Shown here: piece by piece, positions 2,711 to 59,338 of the stretch
How the letters are laid out: each line of letters begins with the position of its first letter
Numbering within the stretch: position 1 is the stretch's first letter
From: Lysinibacillus louembei
Lineage (GTDB): Bacteria > Bacillota > Bacilli > Bacillales_A > Planococcaceae
NCBI RefSeq assembly: GCF_033880585.1
Contig: NZ_CP137624.1
Location: forward strand, 3,259,501-3,323,500
DNA: 64,000 bases
Direction: 5' to 3'
Made by a program: the position numbers and the translations under genes
Notes under the pieces: generated by a model
Database searches by the model: none
What the model saw: only the letters and a program-made list of their open reading frames with translations
What the model was told of the DNA's origin: nothing

Positions 2711-4120
2711 TTATTCTCCACGTAAGCTTTCAATGAAAGTCTGTGGCACATATGTTGTATTTTCTTCTAATAAAGTAGGTGCTACGTCAAATGCTTTGAT
2801 TGCGCGATTATGCGTGTATTGCTTTTGTCTGCGTGTAATTTCGTATGAAGCATTGCCTTTTGTTAGGATTGCACCTTTTCCTGTAGATGTTACTTTATAG
2901 CCTAATTCCTCTGCTAAAGCGCGTAATGGCACCATTGTCACACCATCTACTTGCTTGCTATTTTCTACAGCAAGCTCAGCCTCTGGAAATGTCGCTTCAC
3001 CAAAGACAATCACCTTTGTTGGTGTTGTCTGAGCTGGAATACTTGCTGTTGCTACAGTGTAAAACACTAATGCCTGTGCATTGATTAAATCATCTTTTGC
3101 TAATTTATCACCTGTTAAGCCTGTAATTTCAGTTTTATCATCAATCGTTAGCTTTAACGTATTTTCATGATTTAACAAATTTAAATCAAATGTGCCAAAC
3201 TCCGCTACACCTGCACCTTCCGTTTGCACGATAATCACTTCTGGCGCATATTGTGGTGGATAAATTAAAATTGCAGGCTTCATCACATCTACATACGCTG
3301 TAAATTTCATTCCTTTTTGCAGCTCTATTTTTTTCCCTGTGTTATCAAGGACAATTGTTTCTTTACCAACAGTTAATGCGAATGGTTGCTCTTTATCTTC
3401 AATAACAAGCAGTTGTGAGCCATTTTCACGTGTTACTACATCAGTAATTTCACCTTCAAATTGTTGGAAATCTACTACTTCCTCGATTGGCGTAATTTCT
3501 TCTACTTCATCTTGTACACCGTCAAATACGATGACACGGTATGGATTTGTTTGAGCAGGGATGCTAAATGTTGCTGGTCCGTAAAGAACGATTGCTTCTT
3601 TGCCAACGATTGCGTCATGCGACAATTTATCACCAGCTACATTTGTCACAACTGTTTCATCTGATAAATTTAATTTCAATGTATTTTCCTTATTAACGAA
3701 ATCTTTATCAAATGTGCCTACTTCTACAATGCCAAAATCAGCCGTTTCCACAACTAGCACTTCCGGTGTGTAGCGGGGTGGATAAATTGCTAGCATCGGC
3801 TTGTTTTTATCAACAAACGCTGTAAATTTTGCGCCTTCTTTTAACTCTACTTCTTTACCTTGGTTATCTAAAACAAGTGTGCTTTCTTCAATATATAATG
3901 AGAATGTTTCGTCACCTTGCTCAATTGTTGTATATAATGTGCCGTTATCATGCTTTTCAATTTTCCCTAATTTACCTGTAAGCTGAATGAAGTTTGTTGC
4001 TACTTCCTCCTGCACCTCGTTTGAAGTTGGCTCTTTTTTATCTTGAGCGAATGCTAACGGTGCTGTTATTGCACTCGTTGCTAGTGTCGCTGTTAATGCC
4101 ATTGTCATTGCTTTTTTCAT
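2711..4120 (-). CDS. Secreted protein with two repeat modules and a C-terminal stalk-like domain
   Basis: 469 residues. Signal peptide (cleavage near AFA|QD, residue 25). Two tandem modules of about 160 residues (about 43-205 and 218-378), each with a YPP(R/Q)Y(T/A)PEV segment, ENTLKL and SIPAQT, joined by an acidic linker. The C-terminus (about 387-469, VDGVTMVPLRALAEE) is the same stalk-like domain as in the neighbours. It is the middle member of a tandem triplication with its own ECF-type promoter and terminator. Likely a surface protein made under envelope stress; the stress link is inferred from the promoter only. Confidence 0.85.
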   Translation of the reverse strand: MKKAMTMALTATLATSAITAPLAFAQDKKEPTSNEVQEEVATNFIQLTGKLGKIEKHDNGTLYTTIEQGDETFSLYIEESTLVLDNQGKEVELKEGAKFTAFVDKNKPMLAIYPPRYTPEVLVVETADFGIVEVGTFDKDFVNKENTLKLNLSDETVVTNVAGDKLSHDAIVGKEAIVLYGPATFSIPAQTNPYRVIVFDGVQDEVEEITPIEEVVDFQQFEGEITDVVTRENGSQLLVIEDKEQPFALTVGKETIVLDNTGKKIELQKGMKFTAYVDVMKPAILIYPPQYAPEVIIVQTEGAGVAEFGTFDLNLLNHENTLKLTIDDKTEITGLTGDKLAKDDLINAQALVFYTVATASIPAQTTPTKVIVFGEATFPEAELAVENSKQVDGVTMVPLRALAEELGYKVTSTGKGAILTKGNASYEITRRQKQYTHNRAIKAFDVAPTLLEENTTYVPQTFIESLRGE

Positions 4121-4156
4121 AATCTTTCTCTCTCCTTTAAGTACGTTTCATAGTAT

Positions 4157-4184
4157 TAGTCGTGTTATATTCAAAAAGGTTACA
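4157..4184 (-). promoter_or_regulatory. ECF-sigma-type promoter of the 2711-4120 gene
   Basis: Minus strand TGTAAC (4179-4184), 16-bp spacer beginning CTTTTT, CGACTA (4157-4162), then ATACTATGAAAC. Nearly identical to the promoters at 2553-2580 and 5796-5823. Confidence 0.65.
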
Positions 4185-4235
4185 AAACAATTCATTTTAA
4201 TTTTCATCTCAAATAATTGCTCAAATTACTAATCA

Positions 4236-4285
4236 AAATTAAAAGGTATTCTATAAGCCATGAAAATGACGATAGAATACCTTTT
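4236..4285 (-). terminator. Terminator of the third stalk-like gene
   Basis: Perfect 14-bp stem (AAAAGGTATTCTAT at 4241-4254 and its complement at 4272-4285) with a 17-nt loop, followed on the minus strand by a U-rich tract. Confidence 0.85.
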
Positions 4286-4287
4286 AC

Positions 4288-4321
4288 CATTCATACCGGT
4301 TGGTAGCCAAGATATGAGATG
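4288..4321. repeat. 34-bp 3'-UTR motif, copy 2
   Basis: Second copy of the motif at 2632-2665 (29/34 identical), lying between the stop codon at 4334 and the terminator hairpin. Confidence 0.7.
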
Positions 4322-4333
4322 GGTGGATGCCTT

Positions 4334-5761
4334 TTATTCTCCACGTAAGCTATAAATAAACTCTTGCGGCACATATGTTTTATTTTTTTCTAGCAATGTA
4401 GGTGCTACTTCAAATTTTTTAATAGCACGGTTGTGCGTATATTCCTTTTGATCACGTGTAATTTCATACGAAAGATTGTCCTTTGTCAAGACAGCACCTT
4501 TACCAGTTGATTTCACTGTAAATCCTAGGCTTTCAGCTAAAACTCGTAACGGTACCATTTTCACGCCATTCACTTCATAATGATCTTGTTCAATTATTTC
4601 AGCAATCATATCTAGCACTTCAATAACTGGTGCTGACGTTGAAGGCTCTTCATTATCAGTTAACACCACTATTTTTGCTGGTGTCGTTTGTGCTGGAATA
4701 CTTTTTGTTGATACAGTGTAAAATACTAATGCTGTTTGATCGATTATTTCTTCTTTTGTTAGCTTTTCACCAGTTCTGTTCGTAATAACAGTGTCTTCTG
4801 CGATATTTAGCTTTAACGTATTTTCTTTATTGACGAAATTTTCATCAAAAGTGCTGACAGTTACAAAGCCCATTTCCTCTGTTTCAATAATAATCGCCTC
4901 TGGTGCATATTGTGGTGGATAAATTAAAATAGCAGGCTTTTGGCTATCTACATATGCTGTAAATTTCATTCCTTTTGCTAATTTCACTTCTTTACCAGTA
5001 TTGTCTAATACAACTGTTTCATTATCAACAGCTAAACTGAATGGATTTTCTTTATCATCATTTACTACTAATTGTGTACTGTTCTCACGTGTAACGATAT
5101 CGCTAATTTCACCTGTAAATTCAATAAAGTTGCCTACTTCTTCCTCTGGTTGAGCATCCTCTAAAACAACTATGCTAGATGGACTTGTTTGTGCAGGAAT
5201 GCTAAATGTTGCTGGACCATAAAAGACGATTGCTTCCTTCCCAATGATATCCTCTTTCGCTAATTTTTCACCAGCTAAGTTTGTAATTTGTGATTCCTCA
5301 GATAAGTTTAGCTTTAATGTATTTTCTTTATTAACGAAGTCCTTATCAAATGTACCAATCTCTGCAATACCCATATCGTTTGTTTCAACTACAACAACTT
5401 CTGGTGCATACTGTGGCGGGTAAATGGCTAGCATTGGTTTGTTTTTGTTTACGAATGCTGTGAATTGTAAGCCTTCTTTTAATTCTGCTTTTTTACCTGT
5501 ATTGTCTAAAACTAATGTATTTTCTCCAATTGTTAATGAGAAAGTTTCATCACCTTGCTCAATTGTCGTAAATAGCATGCCGCTTTCGCGCTTTTCAATT
5601 TTGCCTAATTTCCCTGTCAGCTGAATGAAGTTTGTTGCTATTTCCTCCTGCACTTCATTTGAAATTGGCTCTGCTTTATCTTGTGCGAATGCGAATGGTG
5701 CTGATATTGCACTCGTTGCTAACGTTGCTGTTAATGCCATTGTCATGGTTTTTTTCATCAT
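4334..5761 (-). CDS. Secreted protein with two repeat modules and a C-terminal stalk-like domain
   Basis: 475 residues and the most upstream of the three paralogues. Signal peptide ending near AFA|QD (residue 26), two modules (about 45-205 and 220-380) with YPPQYAPE, ENTLKL and SIPAQT, then the stalk-like domain (about 400-475, VNGVKMVPLRVLAES). Many module segments match the 2711 gene almost word for word, which points to recent duplication of modules and genes. Its RBS is followed by ATGATG, so the start could move by one codon. Function unknown. Confidence 0.85.
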   Translation of the reverse strand: MMKKTMTMALTATLATSAISAPFAFAQDKAEPISNEVQEEIATNFIQLTGKLGKIEKRESGMLFTTIEQGDETFSLTIGENTLVLDNTGKKAELKEGLQFTAFVNKNKPMLAIYPPQYAPEVVVVETNDMGIAEIGTFDKDFVNKENTLKLNLSEESQITNLAGEKLAKEDIIGKEAIVFYGPATFSIPAQTSPSSIVVLEDAQPEEEVGNFIEFTGEISDIVTRENSTQLVVNDDKENPFSLAVDNETVVLDNTGKEVKLAKGMKFTAYVDSQKPAILIYPPQYAPEAIIIETEEMGFVTVSTFDENFVNKENTLKLNIAEDTVITNRTGEKLTKEEIIDQTALVFYTVSTKSIPAQTTPAKIVVLTDNEEPSTSAPVIEVLDMIAEIIEQDHYEVNGVKMVPLRVLAESLGFTVKSTGKGAVLTKDNLSYEITRDQKEYTHNRAIKKFEVAPTLLEKNKTYVPQEFIYSLRGE

Positions 5762-53751: not shown

Positions 53752-53912
53752 TATTAACCCTCCCACTCTAATTAAGAATAAAAATTTTGAGCATGATTTA
53801 TACGACTTTCCCATTATAACATAAACCGAAAAAAAAGCTAGTATCATTTCATATTAAGTTGCGATATGGTAAAATAAAAGACAATTGCATCAATTCGATT
53901 GGAGCGTTCAAC

Positions 53913-54284
53913 ATGGAATTATCAATTATTTTAATGATTGTCGGTATATTTTTCATTATCCTTTCTTTATTTTTACGCGATTCGCATAAAAAAGTCGAAA
54001 AGGAAGTAGAGGATTTATCGCTGACGATTTTCCAAGAAACAAATCAATTAAAGCGTCGCTTGAAAATTGTAGAGGAAGAATTAATGCTGGAGCCAAATTT
54101 CCAAGTTGCAAAAAAGAAACCTCTGCCAGCGCAACCACGAGCTTCACAGCCTGTGAATGGCATTTTAGTGAGTCAGGTGTTAGAGCTTAATAAGCAAGGA
54201 CTCGCTATCGAAGAAATTAGCAGACTCTCAACATTATCTGAGGAGCAGGTGCGCCAAATCCTTACAACAGGAGGCGCAGTATGA
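53913..54284 (+). CDS. SwrB-like (DUF6115) membrane-anchored coiled-coil protein
   Basis: 123 residues from ATG 53913. One N-terminal membrane helix (2-20), a coiled-coil stretch (about 28-60), a basic/Pro linker (KKKPLPAQPRAS), and a C-terminal helix-turn-helix-like unit LELNKQGLAIEEISRLSTLS, continuing EEQVRQIL. This order matches SwrB/DUF6115 proteins, which in B. subtilis help flagellar assembly; the match is by layout, so confidence is moderate. It overlaps the next gene by 4 bp. Confidence 0.6.
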   Translation: MELSIILMIVGIFFIILSLFLRDSHKKVEKEVEDLSLTIFQETNQLKRRLKIVEEELMLEPNFQVAKKKPLPAQPRASQPVNGILVSQVLELNKQGLAIEEISRLSTLSEEQVRQILTTGGAV

Positions 54285-54769
54285 AATCCTTTTTAAGAAC
54301 GTTCGGCATCGCCCTCTTTCTAGTAGGTGCACTTCTTACTATTGGAAAGCAGCTACATATTCCTATGTTCAGCTACGGTGAAGCAAATGGCGATACAAAA
54401 AAGCAAGAGGCACGCATTCAAGAACTGGAACAGCAACTAGTAAAGGCCAATGCACAAGTAGTGGAGCTCCAGCAAGCAAATGAGCAACAAGAAATTTCGA
54501 AAGAAGAGCCTGCTGAGAATACGGAACAACCATCCAAGGTAGAAAGCGATGTCGTAAGTGGCGTCGTGGACATATATGAAGGTATCTCTATTTACGATAT
54601 TGGAAAAAAGGTAGAGGATTTAGGTATTTTAGCAAACGGGCGTGAGTTAGAACTGTTTTTATCCAAGCCTGAATACTCCCGTTCCATTCAAAAGGGACAA
54701 TTCGAGCTTCATTCCGCAATGACATTGGAACAAATGGCACGCACTTTAACAGGTAAAAAAGTAGAGTAA
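54281..54769 (+). CDS. MltG/YceG LysM-like domain protein without the catalytic domain
   Basis: 162 residues. N-terminal membrane helix (about 5-22), a Glu/Gln-rich coiled coil (about 40-68), an acidic linker, then about 65 residues (VSGVVDIYEGISIYDIGKKV ... FELHSAMTLEQMARTLTG) like the LysM-like subdomain that precedes the transglycosylase domain of MltG. The catalytic Glu domain is missing, so an enzymatic role is unlikely; it may bind peptidoglycan or a partner. Coupled to the upstream SwrB-like gene by an ATGA overlap. Confidence 0.65.
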   Translation: MKSFLRTFGIALFLVGALLTIGKQLHIPMFSYGEANGDTKKQEARIQELEQQLVKANAQVVELQQANEQQEISKEEPAENTEQPSKVESDVVSGVVDIYEGISIYDIGKKVEDLGILANGRELELFLSKPEYSRSIQKGQFELHSAMTLEQMARTLTGKKVE

Positions 54770-55386: not shown

Positions 55387-55416
55387 AATAATTAATGTTC
55401 ATGCATATTAATTATT
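55387..55416. promoter_or_regulatory. Perfect inverted repeat upstream of the PlcR-like regulator
   Basis: AATAATTAAT (55387-55396) and its exact complement ATTAATTATT (55407-55416), 10-bp spacer GTTCATGCAT. It lies 63 bp before the regulator start, just above a TATAAT (55436-55441 region). Its place and symmetry suit a regulator operator, with autoregulation likely. The region is very AT-rich, so chance is not excluded. Confidence 0.5.
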
Positions 55417-55478
55417 TAATTATATTATAATAAGGTATAATAATTCTATGCAAAATACAAGATAGGAGTAAATTAACT

Positions 55479-56345
55479 ATGAAACAGAGAATTTCACAAA
55501 AAATTAAAGAATTACGAAAAAAGAGAGGGCTTACACAAAAGGATTTAGCTGAAGGTATTTGTACACAGGCAATGGTCAGCAATTTCGAGAAAGGGGAAAT
55601 GATTCCTTCCAGTCTTACACTGTTTGCAATTGCTCAAAGGCTTGGTGTTGATATGAATTATTTCTTTGATATTTCGAACAGCACTAGCACATCCATTAAG
55701 GCAACCGATGCACAACAGATTATTCGTAAGCTCATTCACCAGCATGATTATCAATCCGCTTACTTTATCGTGCAAAACGAGCTACTCCAAGAGGCTCTAC
55801 TAGCACCAGAGTACCGACAATTTTTATTATGGCATAAAGGAATTTGCTTATGGTTTTTACATAAGGAGCTTGATGCAGCCATTCAAACATTGGAAGATGC
55901 TTTACAAATTGACAACCAGCAAAATACCGAACAAACAGCTGCTATTCTAAATAGTATTGCGGTTATTTATGCTGAAGCGACGCTATACGAAAAATCATTA
56001 GCCTATTACGAGCAATGCTTGCCATTACTTCAAGGTCAAACATCTATATCTTATTTAGTGAAAATTCGCATTTATTTTGGTGCCTCGCGCACATTTAAAT
56101 ATTTAGAGCGCTATGAGGAAGCTATATTACTGGCTAAGCAGGGCATTCAATTATGTGTAGAAAATGAAACTTTATATTTATTAGGACAGCTACTTTTCCA
56201 AGAGGCACATTCTGTAATCCTTTCCTCTGAGGATAAAACAGCAGCGGTACCTTACCTTGAGCACGCAAAAGCTATTTTTACATTACAAAATAAATATGAT
56301 TATTTAAAAGCAATTGAGAATTTAAAAATAAACCATTTAAATTAA
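55479..56345 (+). CDS. PlcR/NprR-like (RNPP) transcriptional regulator: XRE HTH plus TPR repeats
   Basis: 288 residues, near the 285 of PlcR. HTH_3 domain (about 6-62): LRKKRGLTQKDLAEGICTQA, MVSNFEKGEMIPSSLTLFAI. Then five or so TPR helix pairs (about 75-285) with PlcR-like spacing: HDYQSAYFIVQNEL, PEYRQFLLWHKGICLWFL, AILNSIAVIYAEATLYEKSL, AYYEQCLPLL, YEEAILLAKQGIQL. RNPP proteins bind a re-imported secreted peptide in the TPR groove and then bind DNA. The small exported-peptide gene 82 bp downstream is the likely partner. Could also act as a TPR phosphatase-type hybrid like NprR; no evidence for that here. Confidence 0.85.
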   Translation: MKQRISQKIKELRKKRGLTQKDLAEGICTQAMVSNFEKGEMIPSSLTLFAIAQRLGVDMNYFFDISNSTSTSIKATDAQQIIRKLIHQHDYQSAYFIVQNELLQEALLAPEYRQFLLWHKGICLWFLHKELDAAIQTLEDALQIDNQQNTEQTAAILNSIAVIYAEATLYEKSLAYYEQCLPLLQGQTSISYLVKIRIYFGASRTFKYLERYEEAILLAKQGIQLCVENETLYLLGQLLFQEAHSVILSSEDKTAAVPYLEHAKAIFTLQNKYDYLKAIENLKINHLN

Positions 56346-56378
56346 ATAACTCCATATTGATTTCCTTTATATTACATG

Positions 56379-56409
56379 GTAAATTATTAAATGTTATTGC
56401 TAAATTTAC
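56379..56409. promoter_or_regulatory. Inverted repeat upstream of the propeptide gene
   Basis: GTAAATT (56379-56385) and AATTTAC (56403-56409) with a 17-bp spacer, ending 18 bp before the propeptide start. Candidate operator for the PlcR-like regulator or a hairpin in the mRNA. Confidence 0.4.
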
Positions 56410-56427
56410 TAATAAAGGATGATACTA

Positions 56428-56604
56428 ATGCAAAAGAAATTAATTAGTCTTTTACTAGCAGTATGCTTAGTGTTACCACTAGGGCTTAGCTTCGCATCTA
56501 CAACAGCGGCAGCTGAAGGGACAACTTTAACAGCCATCCATTATGTCTTCACAACAGCTTCTGCTAAAAAGCCTGCATCTGAAGATATTCCTGCTGAGCC
56601 ATAA
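56428..56604 (+). CDS. Small secreted propeptide, candidate quorum-sensing signal for the upstream regulator
   Basis: 58 residues from ATG 56428 (AAAGGATG upstream). Basic start MQKK, hydrophobic core LISLLLAVCLVLPLGLSF, likely signal-peptidase cut after SFA (about 23) or AAA (about 29), leaving 27-35 residues that end KKPASEDIPAEP. Gene size, place directly downstream of a PlcR-like gene and same strand are as for papR/plcR and nprX/nprR. By analogy the active piece would be 5-8 residues from the C-terminal part, such as within SEDIPAEP; this is inference. Confidence 0.8.
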   Translation: MQKKLISLLLAVCLVLPLGLSFASTTAAAEGTTLTAIHYVFTTASAKKPASEDIPAEP

Positions 56605-56613
56605 AATATAAAC

Positions 56614-56649
56614 AAATCCGTATGACGATATCGCCATACGGATTTTTTA
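56614..56649. terminator. Terminator of the propeptide gene
   Basis: AATCCGTATGACG/CGCCATACGGATT stem (one mismatch) with TTTTTT; the A tract before it lets it also serve the convergent usp gene. Confidence 0.92.
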
Positions 56650-56654
56650 TTATA

Positions 56655-57080
56655 CTATCCTCTTACCACCAATACATCGCATTTCGCGTTGCGCACGATA
56701 CGCTCTGCATTTGAGCCAATAATCATTTTTTCAAAGCGATTTAAACCAGTTGCGCTAATAATGACTAAGTCAATTTCCTTTAAATTTGACAAAATAGCCT
56801 TTGGAGAGCCTAGCTCCACAACCACATGAACAGCTTCCACACCAGCGGCAATGGCCTCCTCTTTTAAGGCTTGGATTTGCTTTTCTCGCTCTCCCTTAAC
56901 TTGCTCTGCATATGTCATATCATATGCTTGCACAGAGCCAAAGGAATGCGTGTCCACTACGCTCACAATATGTAAAGCAGCCTCATTTTGCTTCGCTACT
57001 TTGATGGCGCGCTGGAATGCCTGTAATGATTGCTCTGAAAAATCAATTCCAACAGCAATTTGTTTATAATAGGTTTTCAT
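56655..57080 (-). CDS. Universal stress protein, UspA family
   Basis: 141 residues, one Usp domain. The ATP-binding motif G-2x-G-9x-G(S/N) is visible around ISATGLNRFEKMIIGSNAER, with VGIDFSEQS at beta-1. ATP-binding Usp proteins help in stress and stationary phase; the exact role is unknown. Monocistronic. Confidence 0.9.
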   Translation of the reverse strand: MKTYYKQIAVGIDFSEQSLQAFQRAIKVAKQNEAALHIVSVVDTHSFGSVQAYDMTYAEQVKGEREKQIQALKEEAIAAGVEAVHVVVELGSPKAILSNLKEIDLVIISATGLNRFEKMIIGSNAERIVRNAKCDVLVVRG

Positions 57081-57139
57081 TTTATATTTCCCCTTTTTCT
57101 TTTCATTATAACAAAATAGTGCAAGAGAATATCAGTTTT

Positions 57140-57718
57140 TTATAAGCAATTTGCTGCTTTTAGAAACGCTTCGATCATTACACTACCTGCCTTTGTACCA
57201 ATAGATTCTGGATGAAATTGCAGCCCATAGAGCGGATATTGTGTATGCTGAATTGCCATAATTTCGCCATCATCTGCTGCATTCGCAGTGACAATAAATT
57301 CATCTGGTAGCGTGTCATGTTTGATAACAAGTGAATGGTAACGCATTACTTCCTCAGCATATGCTACATTTTGTAGCAGTCCTTGCTGCAGATGTGTTAG
57401 CTGGCTCGTTTTCCCGTGAATAATATGCGCTGCTCGCACCACCTTTGCACCAAATGCTTCACCTATTGCTTGATGCCCTAAACAAATTCCTAAAATAGGA
57501 AGTTCTCGATGTAGACCTTGAATAATGTCAATGATATTGCCTGCCTCGCGCGGGATACCTGGCCCTGGTGAAATAACAATTGCCTGTGGCTGTAATGCAC
57601 GTATTTCATCCACTGTGATTTGGTCATTGCGCACAACCTGTACTTCTTGCTCAAATGCTGCAATTTGATGATATAAGTTATATGTGAACGAATCGTAGTT
57701 ATCAATTAGTAAAATCAT
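57140..57718 (-). CDS. trpG: Anthranilate synthase component II (glutamine amidotransferase)
   Basis: 192 residues. Class I amidotransferase: catalytic Cys in GICLGHQAIGEAFG, His and Glu in LQFHPESIGT, oxyanion loop SPGPGIPREAG. It supplies ammonia from glutamine to TrpE. Overlaps trpE by 4 bp (ATGA). Sequences like this also serve PabB; the tryptophan T-box upstream argues for a main trp role, but a shared use is common in Bacillus. Confidence 0.85.
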   Translation of the reverse strand: MILLIDNYDSFTYNLYHQIAAFEQEVQVVRNDQITVDEIRALQPQAIVISPGPGIPREAGNIIDIIQGLHRELPILGICLGHQAIGEAFGAKVVRAAHIIHGKTSQLTHLQQGLLQNVAYAEEVMRYHSLVIKHDTLPDEFIVTANAADDGEIMAIQHTQYPLYGLQFHPESIGTKAGSVMIEAFLKAANCL

Positions 57719-59070
57719 TTTCGCACCTCCAGCAATGCACGCGCTTTATTTAGCGTTTCCTCATATTCCATGCGTGGAATAGAGTCATAAACAATTCCAG
57801 CCCCTGCTTGCACATAAGCTTTGCCTTCCTTGACAATCATCGTGCGAATAGCAAGCGTTAAATCCATATTGCCTGAGGCGGAAATATAGCCGACTGCCCC
57901 TGCATAAATGCCGCGCTTTTTTTGCTCCAGCGTATGAATAATTTGCATTGCACGTATTTTCGGTGCGCCTGATACGGTACCAGCGGGTAAGCAAGCAGCA
58001 AGCACGTCTACAATATGTGCGTCCTCTTTTAGCTGCCCTGTTACCTCTGATACAATATGCATGACATATTTGTATTTTTCGATTTGCATATAACGTTTGA
58101 CTTGAACCGAGCCTACCTCACAGACGCGCCCGATATCATTACGTCCTAAATCGACAAGCATTCGATGCTCAGCAAGCTCCTTTTCATCGTTCAGCAGACT
58201 TTTGGCTAATTGCTCATCCTCCTCCATTGTTGCGCTGCGCGGCTTCGTGCCTGCGATTGGATTCGTCGTCACAACGCCCTGCTGCACCTTAACTAGGCTT
58301 TCTGGCGATGTACCGAGCACAATCGCATTGTCAAAATTCATGTAAAACATATAAGGTGACGGATTCGTTGCTCGTAGCTTACGATACAGTGTAAAGGCAT
58401 CACCCTCAAAGCTTGCTTCAAAGGTTTGCGACAGCACTACTTGGAAAATGTCACCACGTTGAATATGTTGCTGTGCCGTTTCGACCATTTTTGTGAACTG
58501 CTCCTCGCTTATCGTTGCAGAAAACTGTATATCAACATTCGTATCGGTCATTTGTGTTACTTGTTGTTCGATTTGCTGTTTAAGGCCTTGGATGGCTTGC
58601 TCCATTTGTATCTCTGTACGCTCTCCAAATAAATCAACTGCCACTAATGTCACTATTTGCTCGATATGATCCATAACAATAAACGTATCGTATAAATAAA
58701 GATGGATGTCTGGTAGCTGATAAGCATCGTTGACAGGCTGCCCAATCGTTTCAAAATGAAAGGCTGTTTCATAGCTAAAATAGCCTATAGCACCTCCGAA
58801 GAAGGCAAAGGGATAGCTTCCTTGATGAATTGGCAGCACCTCTTTTAAACGCTCTGCTACCGCTATATTTTTCACTTCTCCATTAAAGATTGACGCTTGC
58901 CCATCTCCTGTTAATTCACCGATTGGGTCTACGGCAATAAATGAATAACGGCCACTTTCGGCATATTTGGCATTTGATTCAAATAGCATTTTATTACGCC
59001 CTTGAAGACTTGTATAAATGCCAATTGGGGTATACATATCCCCTTGCAATGTTTTCGTTACAAATTTCAT
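57715..59070 (-). CDS. trpE: Anthranilate synthase component I
   Basis: 451 residues from ATG 59070 (AGAGGAG upstream). Chorismate-binding domain with DIFQVVLSQ, NPSPYMFYM, GTSPESLVKV, PIAGTKPRS, VDLGRNDIGRV, GTVSGAPKIRAMQII, and GAGIVYDS. The N-terminal MLFESNAKYAESGRYSF resembles the tryptophan feedback site (LLES). It turns chorismate into anthranilate. The rest of the trp pathway is not next to it. Control by the T-box at 59101-59338. Confidence 0.9.
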   Translation of the reverse strand: MKFVTKTLQGDMYTPIGIYTSLQGRNKMLFESNAKYAESGRYSFIAVDPIGELTGDGQASIFNGEVKNIAVAERLKEVLPIHQGSYPFAFFGGAIGYFSYETAFHFETIGQPVNDAYQLPDIHLYLYDTFIVMDHIEQIVTLVAVDLFGERTEIQMEQAIQGLKQQIEQQVTQMTDTNVDIQFSATISEEQFTKMVETAQQHIQRGDIFQVVLSQTFEASFEGDAFTLYRKLRATNPSPYMFYMNFDNAIVLGTSPESLVKVQQGVVTTNPIAGTKPRSATMEEDEQLAKSLLNDEKELAEHRMLVDLGRNDIGRVCEVGSVQVKRYMQIEKYKYVMHIVSEVTGQLKEDAHIVDVLAACLPAGTVSGAPKIRAMQIIHTLEQKKRGIYAGAVGYISASGNMDLTLAIRTMIVKEGKAYVQAGAGIVYDSIPRMEYEETLNKARALLEVRK

Positions 59071-59100
59071 ACTCTGCTCTCCTCTTCTCTGCTCATTTGT

Positions 59101-59338
59101 ACACAAAAAGGCCCTCCGCACTGTAAAGGACGGAGAGCCGTGGTACCACCTTCATTGACTAATTGCTTAGCCCACTCGACTGCTTGTAACGTTAGCAATT
59201 ACGGCAAGGCATTTCCTCCTTGCAGCTAGAAAATCCATTCACCTATGCTGACTGCTAGCTCGCACCACCCGCTAACTCTCTTAGAAAATCAGACATACGT
59301 TACTATTTTTTCATGATCGCTTTTATGCTGTAATTGTA
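59101..59338 (-). promoter_or_regulatory. Tryptophan T-box leader with promoter, before trpE
   Basis: Promoter on the minus strand TTGAAT (59356-59361), 17 bp, TACAAT (59333-59338). Stem I region GAGTTAGCGGGTGGTGCGAG, then a TGG (Trp) codon in GTGAATGGATTTTC placed as a specifier followed by A. The conserved T-box AAGGTGGTACCACGGC (about 59137-59152) is followed by the terminator GGCTCTCCG ... CGGAGGGCCTTTTT (59105-59140). Uncharged tRNA(Trp) would allow read-through into trpEG. Confidence 0.9.

Follow-up and report, generated by a model that had tools for sequence, protein, structure and literature searches.

A two-gene locus in the window (the whole 64,000-nucleotide stretch of Lysinibacillus louembei DNA that was analysed) very probably encodes an RNPP-type quorum-sensing pair that functions like PlcR-PapR and behaves as a pherotype locus. 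The initial annotation had proposed a PlcR-type receptor paired with a secreted peptide, and its proposal is borne out at sequence level by the family and predicted fold of the receptor, the retained pairing of the two genes, their co-divergence in one strain pair and covariation at known pocket residues, together with the presence of OppA-like proteins in the genome. The features of the locus are listed in Table 1.

Table 1 Features of the receptor–peptide locus, with positions in the window.
Feature	Position	Strand	Basis
Inverted repeat before regulator	55389..55418	.	arms 55389-55406/55401-55418, 72% complementary
Regulator -10 box, TATAAT	55436..55441	+	kept in 4/4 orthologues
PlcR-like regulator/receptor gene	55479..56345	+	288 aa; HTH ~1-63, linker, TPR-type helix pairs ~72-287
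Likely peptide-gene promoter, TTGATT-N17-TAAATT	56357..56385	+	conserved in first-peptide leaders
Imperfect palindrome TTATTGCTAAATTTACTAATAA, directly 5' of ribosome site	56394..56415	+	13-nt overlapping arms, 85% complementary; candidate operator
Propeptide gene, PapR-like, probably secreted	56428..56604	+	ORF (ATG 56428 to stop 56604), ribosome site, orthologues in L031/L084, L032/L038, L039
Signal peptide, residues 1 to ~29, probable cut A-A-A/EG	56428..56514	+	read from sequence
Proposed signalling heptapeptide, EDIPAEP	56581..56601	+	position-equivalent to PapR7; orthologues INIPSEP, INIPLRP, INIPDRP
Hairpin terminator	56614..56645	.	RNA fold z -5.5; 0/200 shuffles as good

The regulator carries a Cro/C1-type HTH and matched the Pfam families RNPP_C (69.2 bits, cut-off 26.5; E 4.8e-19), HTH_3 (56 bits) and TPR_12 (39.7 bits), all above cut-off. 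These matches agree with the earlier reading of the ORF at 55479-56345 as a 288-residue HTH and TPR protein with PlcR-like features, for which a search against RNPP profiles had been suggested, and they give the protein the size and domains published for RRNPPA receptors (~250-500 aa with TPRs, plus an HTH in regulators; PMC10075063). Its best sequence match in the PDB was PlcR (2qfc, phmmer, 1.7e-23). Similarly, an AlphaFold2 model built with 17 relatives as input (pLDDT 89.3, pTM 0.70) retrieved PlcR in the first five Foldseek chains (3u3w, 2qfc and 4fsc; 8.7e-13 for the first), with TM scores by query length of 0.63-0.69, and the helices following the linker would make up about six to seven pairs at most. 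A PADLOC scan returned nothing beyond HTH-level matches. A Metasolibacillus metagenome genome was the closest named relative by regulator gene, at 82% identity, and 'Bacillus ndiopicus' came next at 70%. The window's genome (3.96 Mb, one contig) encodes OppA-like binding proteins (12 matches, 11 counted above cut-off); the initial annotation had proposed looking for an Opp importer.

Within this family the regulator is assigned by its sequence to a sister clade of PlcR rather than to PlcR proper. In a midpoint-rooted tree with long branches flagged, PlcR among them, the window clade (14 rows, support 100/96) fell outside the clade containing PlcR 2qfc (13 rows, 100/94). The initial annotation had looked to the pocket asparagines as a mark of peptide binding; of those in PlcR, which we take to be N159 and N201, the first has a retained counterpart (N158) and the second is replaced by Gly in the window clade. 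At the columns of PlcR K87, K89 and Y275 the regulator has H87, H89 and Y275, so that only the Tyr is retained. The PlcR box TATGNAN4TNCATA, allowing up to one mismatch, matched twice in the window against 4.8 expected, neither time at the locus, and 13 times in the genome against nine for the reversed pattern. As clade, K87/K89 and PlcR box all depart from PlcR proper, the locus is best called a PlcR-sister system.

The second gene starts 82 bp 3' of the regulator stop on the same strand and encodes a propeptide of 58 aa from 58 codons (ORF 56428-56604, with AAAGG 5' of the ATG), as first described; an alternative in-frame ATG at 56419 nearly overlies the AAAGG. The propeptide begins with KK, a long hydrophobic stretch and then A-A-A, which reads as a Sec signal and passes a simple leader heuristic, and it ends in ...SAKKPASEDIPAEP. 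Its last seven residues, EDIPAEP, align gap-free from the C-terminus with PapR7 (ADLPFEF) and PapRa7 (CSIPYEY; both PMC3519770), sharing an aliphatic residue at position 3, Pro4 and Glu6. Against the core classes of PapR, whose tails are LPFE(F/Y), VP(F/Y)E(F/Y), MPFEF and LPFEH (PMC5007282), EDIPAEP retains Asp2, aliphatic 3, Pro4 and Glu6, but neither the aromatic residue 5 nor residue 7. The C-terminus had been described as unlike that of PapR, a contrast that is too strong, since the peptide lines up with PapR7 and PapRa7. Judged from the alignment, the tail is a divergent PapR-type tail, a position-by-position variant, and with its three orthologues yields the consensus x-[DN]-[IL]-P-x-[ER]-x.

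Pairing of the two genes is conserved across the five genomes sampled for the genus and species (G000, G001, G002, G003 and G094). Four of them carry a window-type regulator, while G002 has only a paralogue, and in all four loci a peptide gene follows ~77-83 bp downstream, with the tails EDIPAEP, INIPSEP, INIPLRP and INIPDRP; the small gene is thus conserved beside orthologous regulators, a condition that the initial annotation had set for its reading. A paralogous regulator, 42-44% identical, occurs in four of the five genomes (all except G003), each time beside its own small peptide gene, with the tails LPDLPSRH, LPDLPSRP and LPDLPSLP. Peptide genes stand in tandem at the paralogue in two genomes, with two copies in G094 and at least two in G001. 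At locus L139 (G094; 3682-4024 of the reverse complement) the paralogous receptor is accompanied by two tandem propeptides ending in LPDLPSLP and LPDLPSRP, and at L037 (G001; 3832-4426) by two ending in LPDLPSRH and LPDLPSIH; L037 also contains another ORF, whose start is unusual and whose tail is LSDLPSSHD.

The receptor–peptide block is strongly diverged between the window and G094, a strain labelled as the same species. When 200-bp bins were compared (313 in all, another seven at 1-1400 having no coverage), median identity was 0.99 and 29 bins fell below 0.95, the lowest of all being 56401-56600, at the peptide gene (0.63). In 100-bp bins, identity was 1.00 at 55400-55499, 0.59-0.77 over 55900-56399, 0.53 at 56500-56599 and 0.97-1.00 over 56700-59299, that is, 97-100% in the flanks and 53-77% in the TPR half and peptide gene. 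The regulator proteins are 100% identical over residues 1-63, 98% over 64-125 and 69% over 126-288, and the propeptides 41% identical. Synonymous divergence was 0.01-0.06 in five of six neighbours (GPx, USP, PabA, PabB and ORF 53859-54284), rose along the regulator from 0.29 through 1.01 to 1.47 (the last for residues 126-288) and approached saturation in the peptide gene, which indicates that the strain-variable block is old. The earlier suggestion that the peptide C-terminus and the TPR groove vary together therefore holds in this strain pair, where both diverge between near-identical flanks, and the pattern looks like a pherotype polymorphism. Between these strains the paralogous system is different as well, with receptors that share 68% identity over residues 126-207 and peptides that are not the same. 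Over residues 208-288 the G094 receptor (L031) is closer to those of two other species (0.72 and 0.76) than to the window's (0.64); a tree of these residues did not reject a window plus L031 clade (AU p 0.40), and one of residues 126-288 weakly united the two (75/80).

Divergence between the strains also occurs elsewhere in the window. The sixth neighbour, a YceG-like membrane ORF at 54281-54769 (162 aa; its Pfam match is weak and below cut-off), has a dS of 0.60 and only 77% protein identity to the G094 copy; identity is low at 54300-54600, although the neighbours on both sides are 98-99% identical. Positions 4001-5600 form another divergent block (bins 0.65-0.92), and several additional matches at 62-71% identity, lying between 1564 and 5823, suggest tandem related genes or repeats. 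With these two further clearly divergent stretches, the receptor–peptide block is one of several variable loci.

Relatives of the regulator are widespread. Within the family, RNPP_C was found in 48 of 261 genomes, and in none of 14 control genomes. A profile of the 17 relatives had hits at 1e-30 in 79 of 398 class genomes (31 of 146 genera) and, at 1e-60 in one family, in 72 of 121 genomes. From loci fetched from among the profile matches, 217 regulator ORFs were collected, or 194 once identical ones were removed. Nearby peptide genes, defined as small ORFs at a distance of at most 450 bp that have a ribosome site, begin like a leader and end in [LIVMF]Pxxx, accompanied 82 of the 194, while the filter found none at the other 112. 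Two of the 82 pairs (tail VIPNNK; L171 and L194) were judged spurious and dropped, leaving 80 pairs with the nearest peptide taken for each regulator. Tails of the [LIVMF]Pxxx type were concentrated near regulators, at 84 of 259 qualifying ORFs within 450 bp versus 19 of 385 farther off (Fisher 8e-21), counts that include the spurious VIPNNK tails and in which a far ORF may adjoin a second regulator. The commonest survey tails were IPSEH (11), LPYQH (5) and LPFQH (4), and a final Pro occurred in six survey rows, all of the window's genus. At seven loci (L153, L160, L193, L204, L208, L215 and L230) the propeptide end repeats its own signal, for example NELPTVYHELPTVY, GIPSEHSLGIPSEH and PLPTQHGAPLPTQH. 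Tandem PlcR-sister receptors with no qualifying peptide gene nearby were observed at L033, L035 and L146-L148 (Robertmurraya in two named cases); it is possible that these receptors are eavesdroppers, or that their signal was missed.

Covariation between receptor and peptide was scored across the 80 pairs (effective number 37) as background-corrected mutual information over 263 variable receptor columns, with PlcR supplying the numbering only and not being among the pairs. In PlcR, the glutamate of PapR is bound by Y275, K87 and K89, according to a review (PMC5007282). For peptide position 6, the position of this glutamate, column 89 ranked first of 263, column 275 ranked 17th and column 87 ranked 23rd; the chance of three random columns all reaching rank 23 is 6e-4, with the cut set after the ranks were known. 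Covariation at this position thus points at the PlcR pocket residues. Elsewhere in the peptide, position 1 was led by column 258, position 2 by 208, position 3 by 267 with 200 next, position 5 by 166 and position 7 by 125; these are given as covariation ranks rather than as established contacts. For 10 of 12 tested column pairs, none of 300 within-clade shuffles reached the observed value, which means that the effect of relatedness was not removed and that only the ranking informs; by the within-clade score, column 89 was third for position 6, behind 119 and 230. Two further candidates were rejected: column 201, the N201-to-Gly site, paired with a small peptide residue 5 (rank 89 of 263; equalled or exceeded in 286 of 300 shuffles), and column 237 with peptide position 6 (rank 118 by background-corrected score).

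The leader of the peptide gene contains a likely promoter, of which the general form TTGAT[TA]-N17-TAAATT is present in 8/8 first-peptide leaders (four window-type and four paralogue-type) and 0/2 second-copy leaders; in a consensus promoter scan it was too weak to be called. A TT[AT]CTAAT box adjoining the ribosome site shows the same distribution within the genus (8/8 and 0/2). In the window this box is one half of the imperfect palindrome, and its CTAAT-AAAGG half is common to the paralogue's peptide gene. The palindrome may be an operator, although its only other exact genomic copy sits in a coding gene, so this role stays a proposal. A genome-wide regulon based on it was rejected, with 13 matches at up to one mismatch in the window's genome versus 12 for the reversed pattern, and the scan for the repeats that the initial annotation had suggested thus offered no regulon. 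Among 13 of the listed places that were examined, not all of them in this genome, 10 lay inside ORFs (including the other exact copy) and three were intergenic: L132, 57 bp before an ORF in another species, L135 and L138. No copy examined of the palindrome or box stood before another gene of the genome, the copies lying in coding genes and once in a CRISPR-like stretch. This stretch, at ~1727-1867 of L138 (G000, near 3099786), contains the 33-nt unit GTTTCTCTCTGTATGGAGAGAATGGATTGAAAT twice with differing sequence between, resembling a CRISPR array. A shorter element, TTACTAAT-N0/1-AAAGG, has four copies in the window's genome, two before the two pheromone genes and two in coding genes; across five genomes, seven of the eight places fetched were in ORFs, the exception being L258.

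Other control signals fared less well than first described. Both inverted repeats exist, but their arms are 85% and 72% complementary rather than perfect or near-perfect, and the regulator-side repeat, also put forward as an operator, was kept only within the same species and not conserved in two others, which speaks against that role. The hairpin assigned to the peptide gene as its own terminator is real. However, it lies ~10 bp from the stop of a convergent gene (56655-57080) and was called by the terminator scan on the - strand only (one found, 1.0 expected in shuffles), and is therefore probably shared with that gene.

From these observations we infer a circuit in which the propeptide would leave the cell through Sec and be cut down to roughly its seven C-terminal residues (EDIPAEP). 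An Opp importer would return this peptide to the cell, where the TPR groove of the neighbouring regulator would bind it, altering the regulator's DNA binding. Through the CTAAT element the regulator would control the promoter of the peptide gene itself, and the locus would be a pherotype locus in that its HTH end is constant while the TPR groove and peptide occur as strongly diverged alleles in one species. Repression that the peptide relieves or alters seems slightly more likely, though as a guess, because the CTAAT element lies downstream of the -10 box (in the paralogue it abuts or overlaps the -10). Against this stands the reading, somewhat less probable than not but close to it, that the peptide-bound regulator is an activator like PlcR and that the repeat, which the peptide genes of both paralogous systems would have inherited, has a role in translation or in the mRNA instead of being the operator. 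PlcR without peptide does not bind DNA (PMC5007282), and the element adjoins the ribosome site in both systems, both in keeping with this reading; however, the window element is partly palindromic and is common to the two systems despite a regulator identity of only 43%.

It is very improbable that the small gene encodes an unrelated secreted peptide, for example an antimicrobial or cell-wall peptide, and that the PlcR-like receptor takes its true ligand from elsewhere. Such a reading could draw on the 112 of 194 related regulators lacking a detected neighbour peptide and on a receptor–peptide link that is one of sequence, not biochemistry, but it sits poorly with the adjacency retained in the genus and in paralogues, the PapR-like tail at the extreme C-terminus, the divergence of the peptide together with the TPR half and the covariation at PlcR-89. 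An explanation of the strain difference by ordinary recombination import from a relative (or by assembly error), with no selection for different signals, is unlikely but carries more weight. It is favoured by the single strain pair, by the divergence of other parts of the window (4001-5600, 54281-54769 and the 29/313 bins below 0.95), by near-saturated synonymous sites, which point to an allele of long standing, whether imported or retained, and away from rapid recent change, and by the trees of residues 208-288 (AU p 0.40) and 126-288 (75/80). Against it, the block spans the receptor groove and the signal, with an HTH that is 100% identical in protein, and the paralogous system likewise differs between both strains.

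Among known systems, the PlcR-sister pair resembles PlcR-PapR of the B. cereus group, with an HTH and TPR receptor of similar length, a downstream secreted propeptide and a signal at the extreme C-terminus whose heptapeptide can be aligned position by position. It differs in its separate, supported clade, in the changes of N201 to Gly and of K87/K89 to His/His, in a core (IPAEP) that has no aromatics and ends in Pro, and in a locus without a PlcR box. NprR-NprX and Rap-Phr likewise follow the RRNPPA scheme, in which a peptide is exported, trimmed and imported. Their receptors are larger and have more TPRs, with ~420 aa and nine TPRs in NprR, whereas the window regulator has 288 aa and roughly six to seven helix pairs at most, and Foldseek ranks PlcR first for it. 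The ComQXPA pherotypes of B. subtilis define distinct communication groups within one species (PMC4408185), although with another type of receptor, while the evidence presented here concerns a PlcR-sister system in one strain pair. The agr and PlcR systems are likewise divided into classes. Compared by peptide rather than by PlcRa sequence, PlcRa-PapRa of B. cereus is also close, as PapRa7 (CSIPYEY) shares x-x-I-P-x-E-x with EDIPAEP, and no PlcR-type palindrome was found upstream of PlcRa targets (PMC3519770). However, PapRa has 93 aa, is encoded upstream and carries its heptapeptide internally, whereas the window propeptide has 58 aa, is encoded downstream and carries it C-terminally. In addition, TprA of the streptococcal TprA-PhrA system has been grouped with PlcR as a subfamily in a study describing 21 new RRNPP subfamilies (PMC10075063), a likeness by published grouping rather than by sequence comparison, which means that PlcR-like systems were already known beyond the B. 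cereus group. According to another census, PlcR occurs 'predominantly' in Bacillus, and putative PlcR systems had previously been claimed for Lactobacillales (PMC9765709). The terms Lysinibacillus, Solibacillus and Planococ- are absent from the main texts of these two censuses (PMC9765709 and PMC10075063), whose supplementary tables may list the pair, and among the article titles listed none dealt with this system in either Metasolibacillus or the family it belongs to.

On a broader scale, we give about even chances to a class-wide pheromone code of the form x-x-[LI]-P-x-x-x at the extreme C-terminus, common in Bacillaceae and Caryophanaceae, in which PlcR-PapR would be one corner, the groove would predict the peptide, pherotype alleles would be balanced at two loci in the window's species and the Pro-ended signal would be confined, among the genomes surveyed, to the window's genus. 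PlcR-PapR is best known as a virulence switch of the B. cereus group. Its design is now seen in another family, within a sister clade common in Bacilli (72/121 genomes of one family), and the 80 receptor–peptide pairs form a natural data set on how a TPR groove selects its peptide. Moreover, two otherwise near-identical strains have clearly different versions of receptor and signal, and with near-identical flanks around a different signal and groove, this strain pair makes a direct test of cross-talk feasible.
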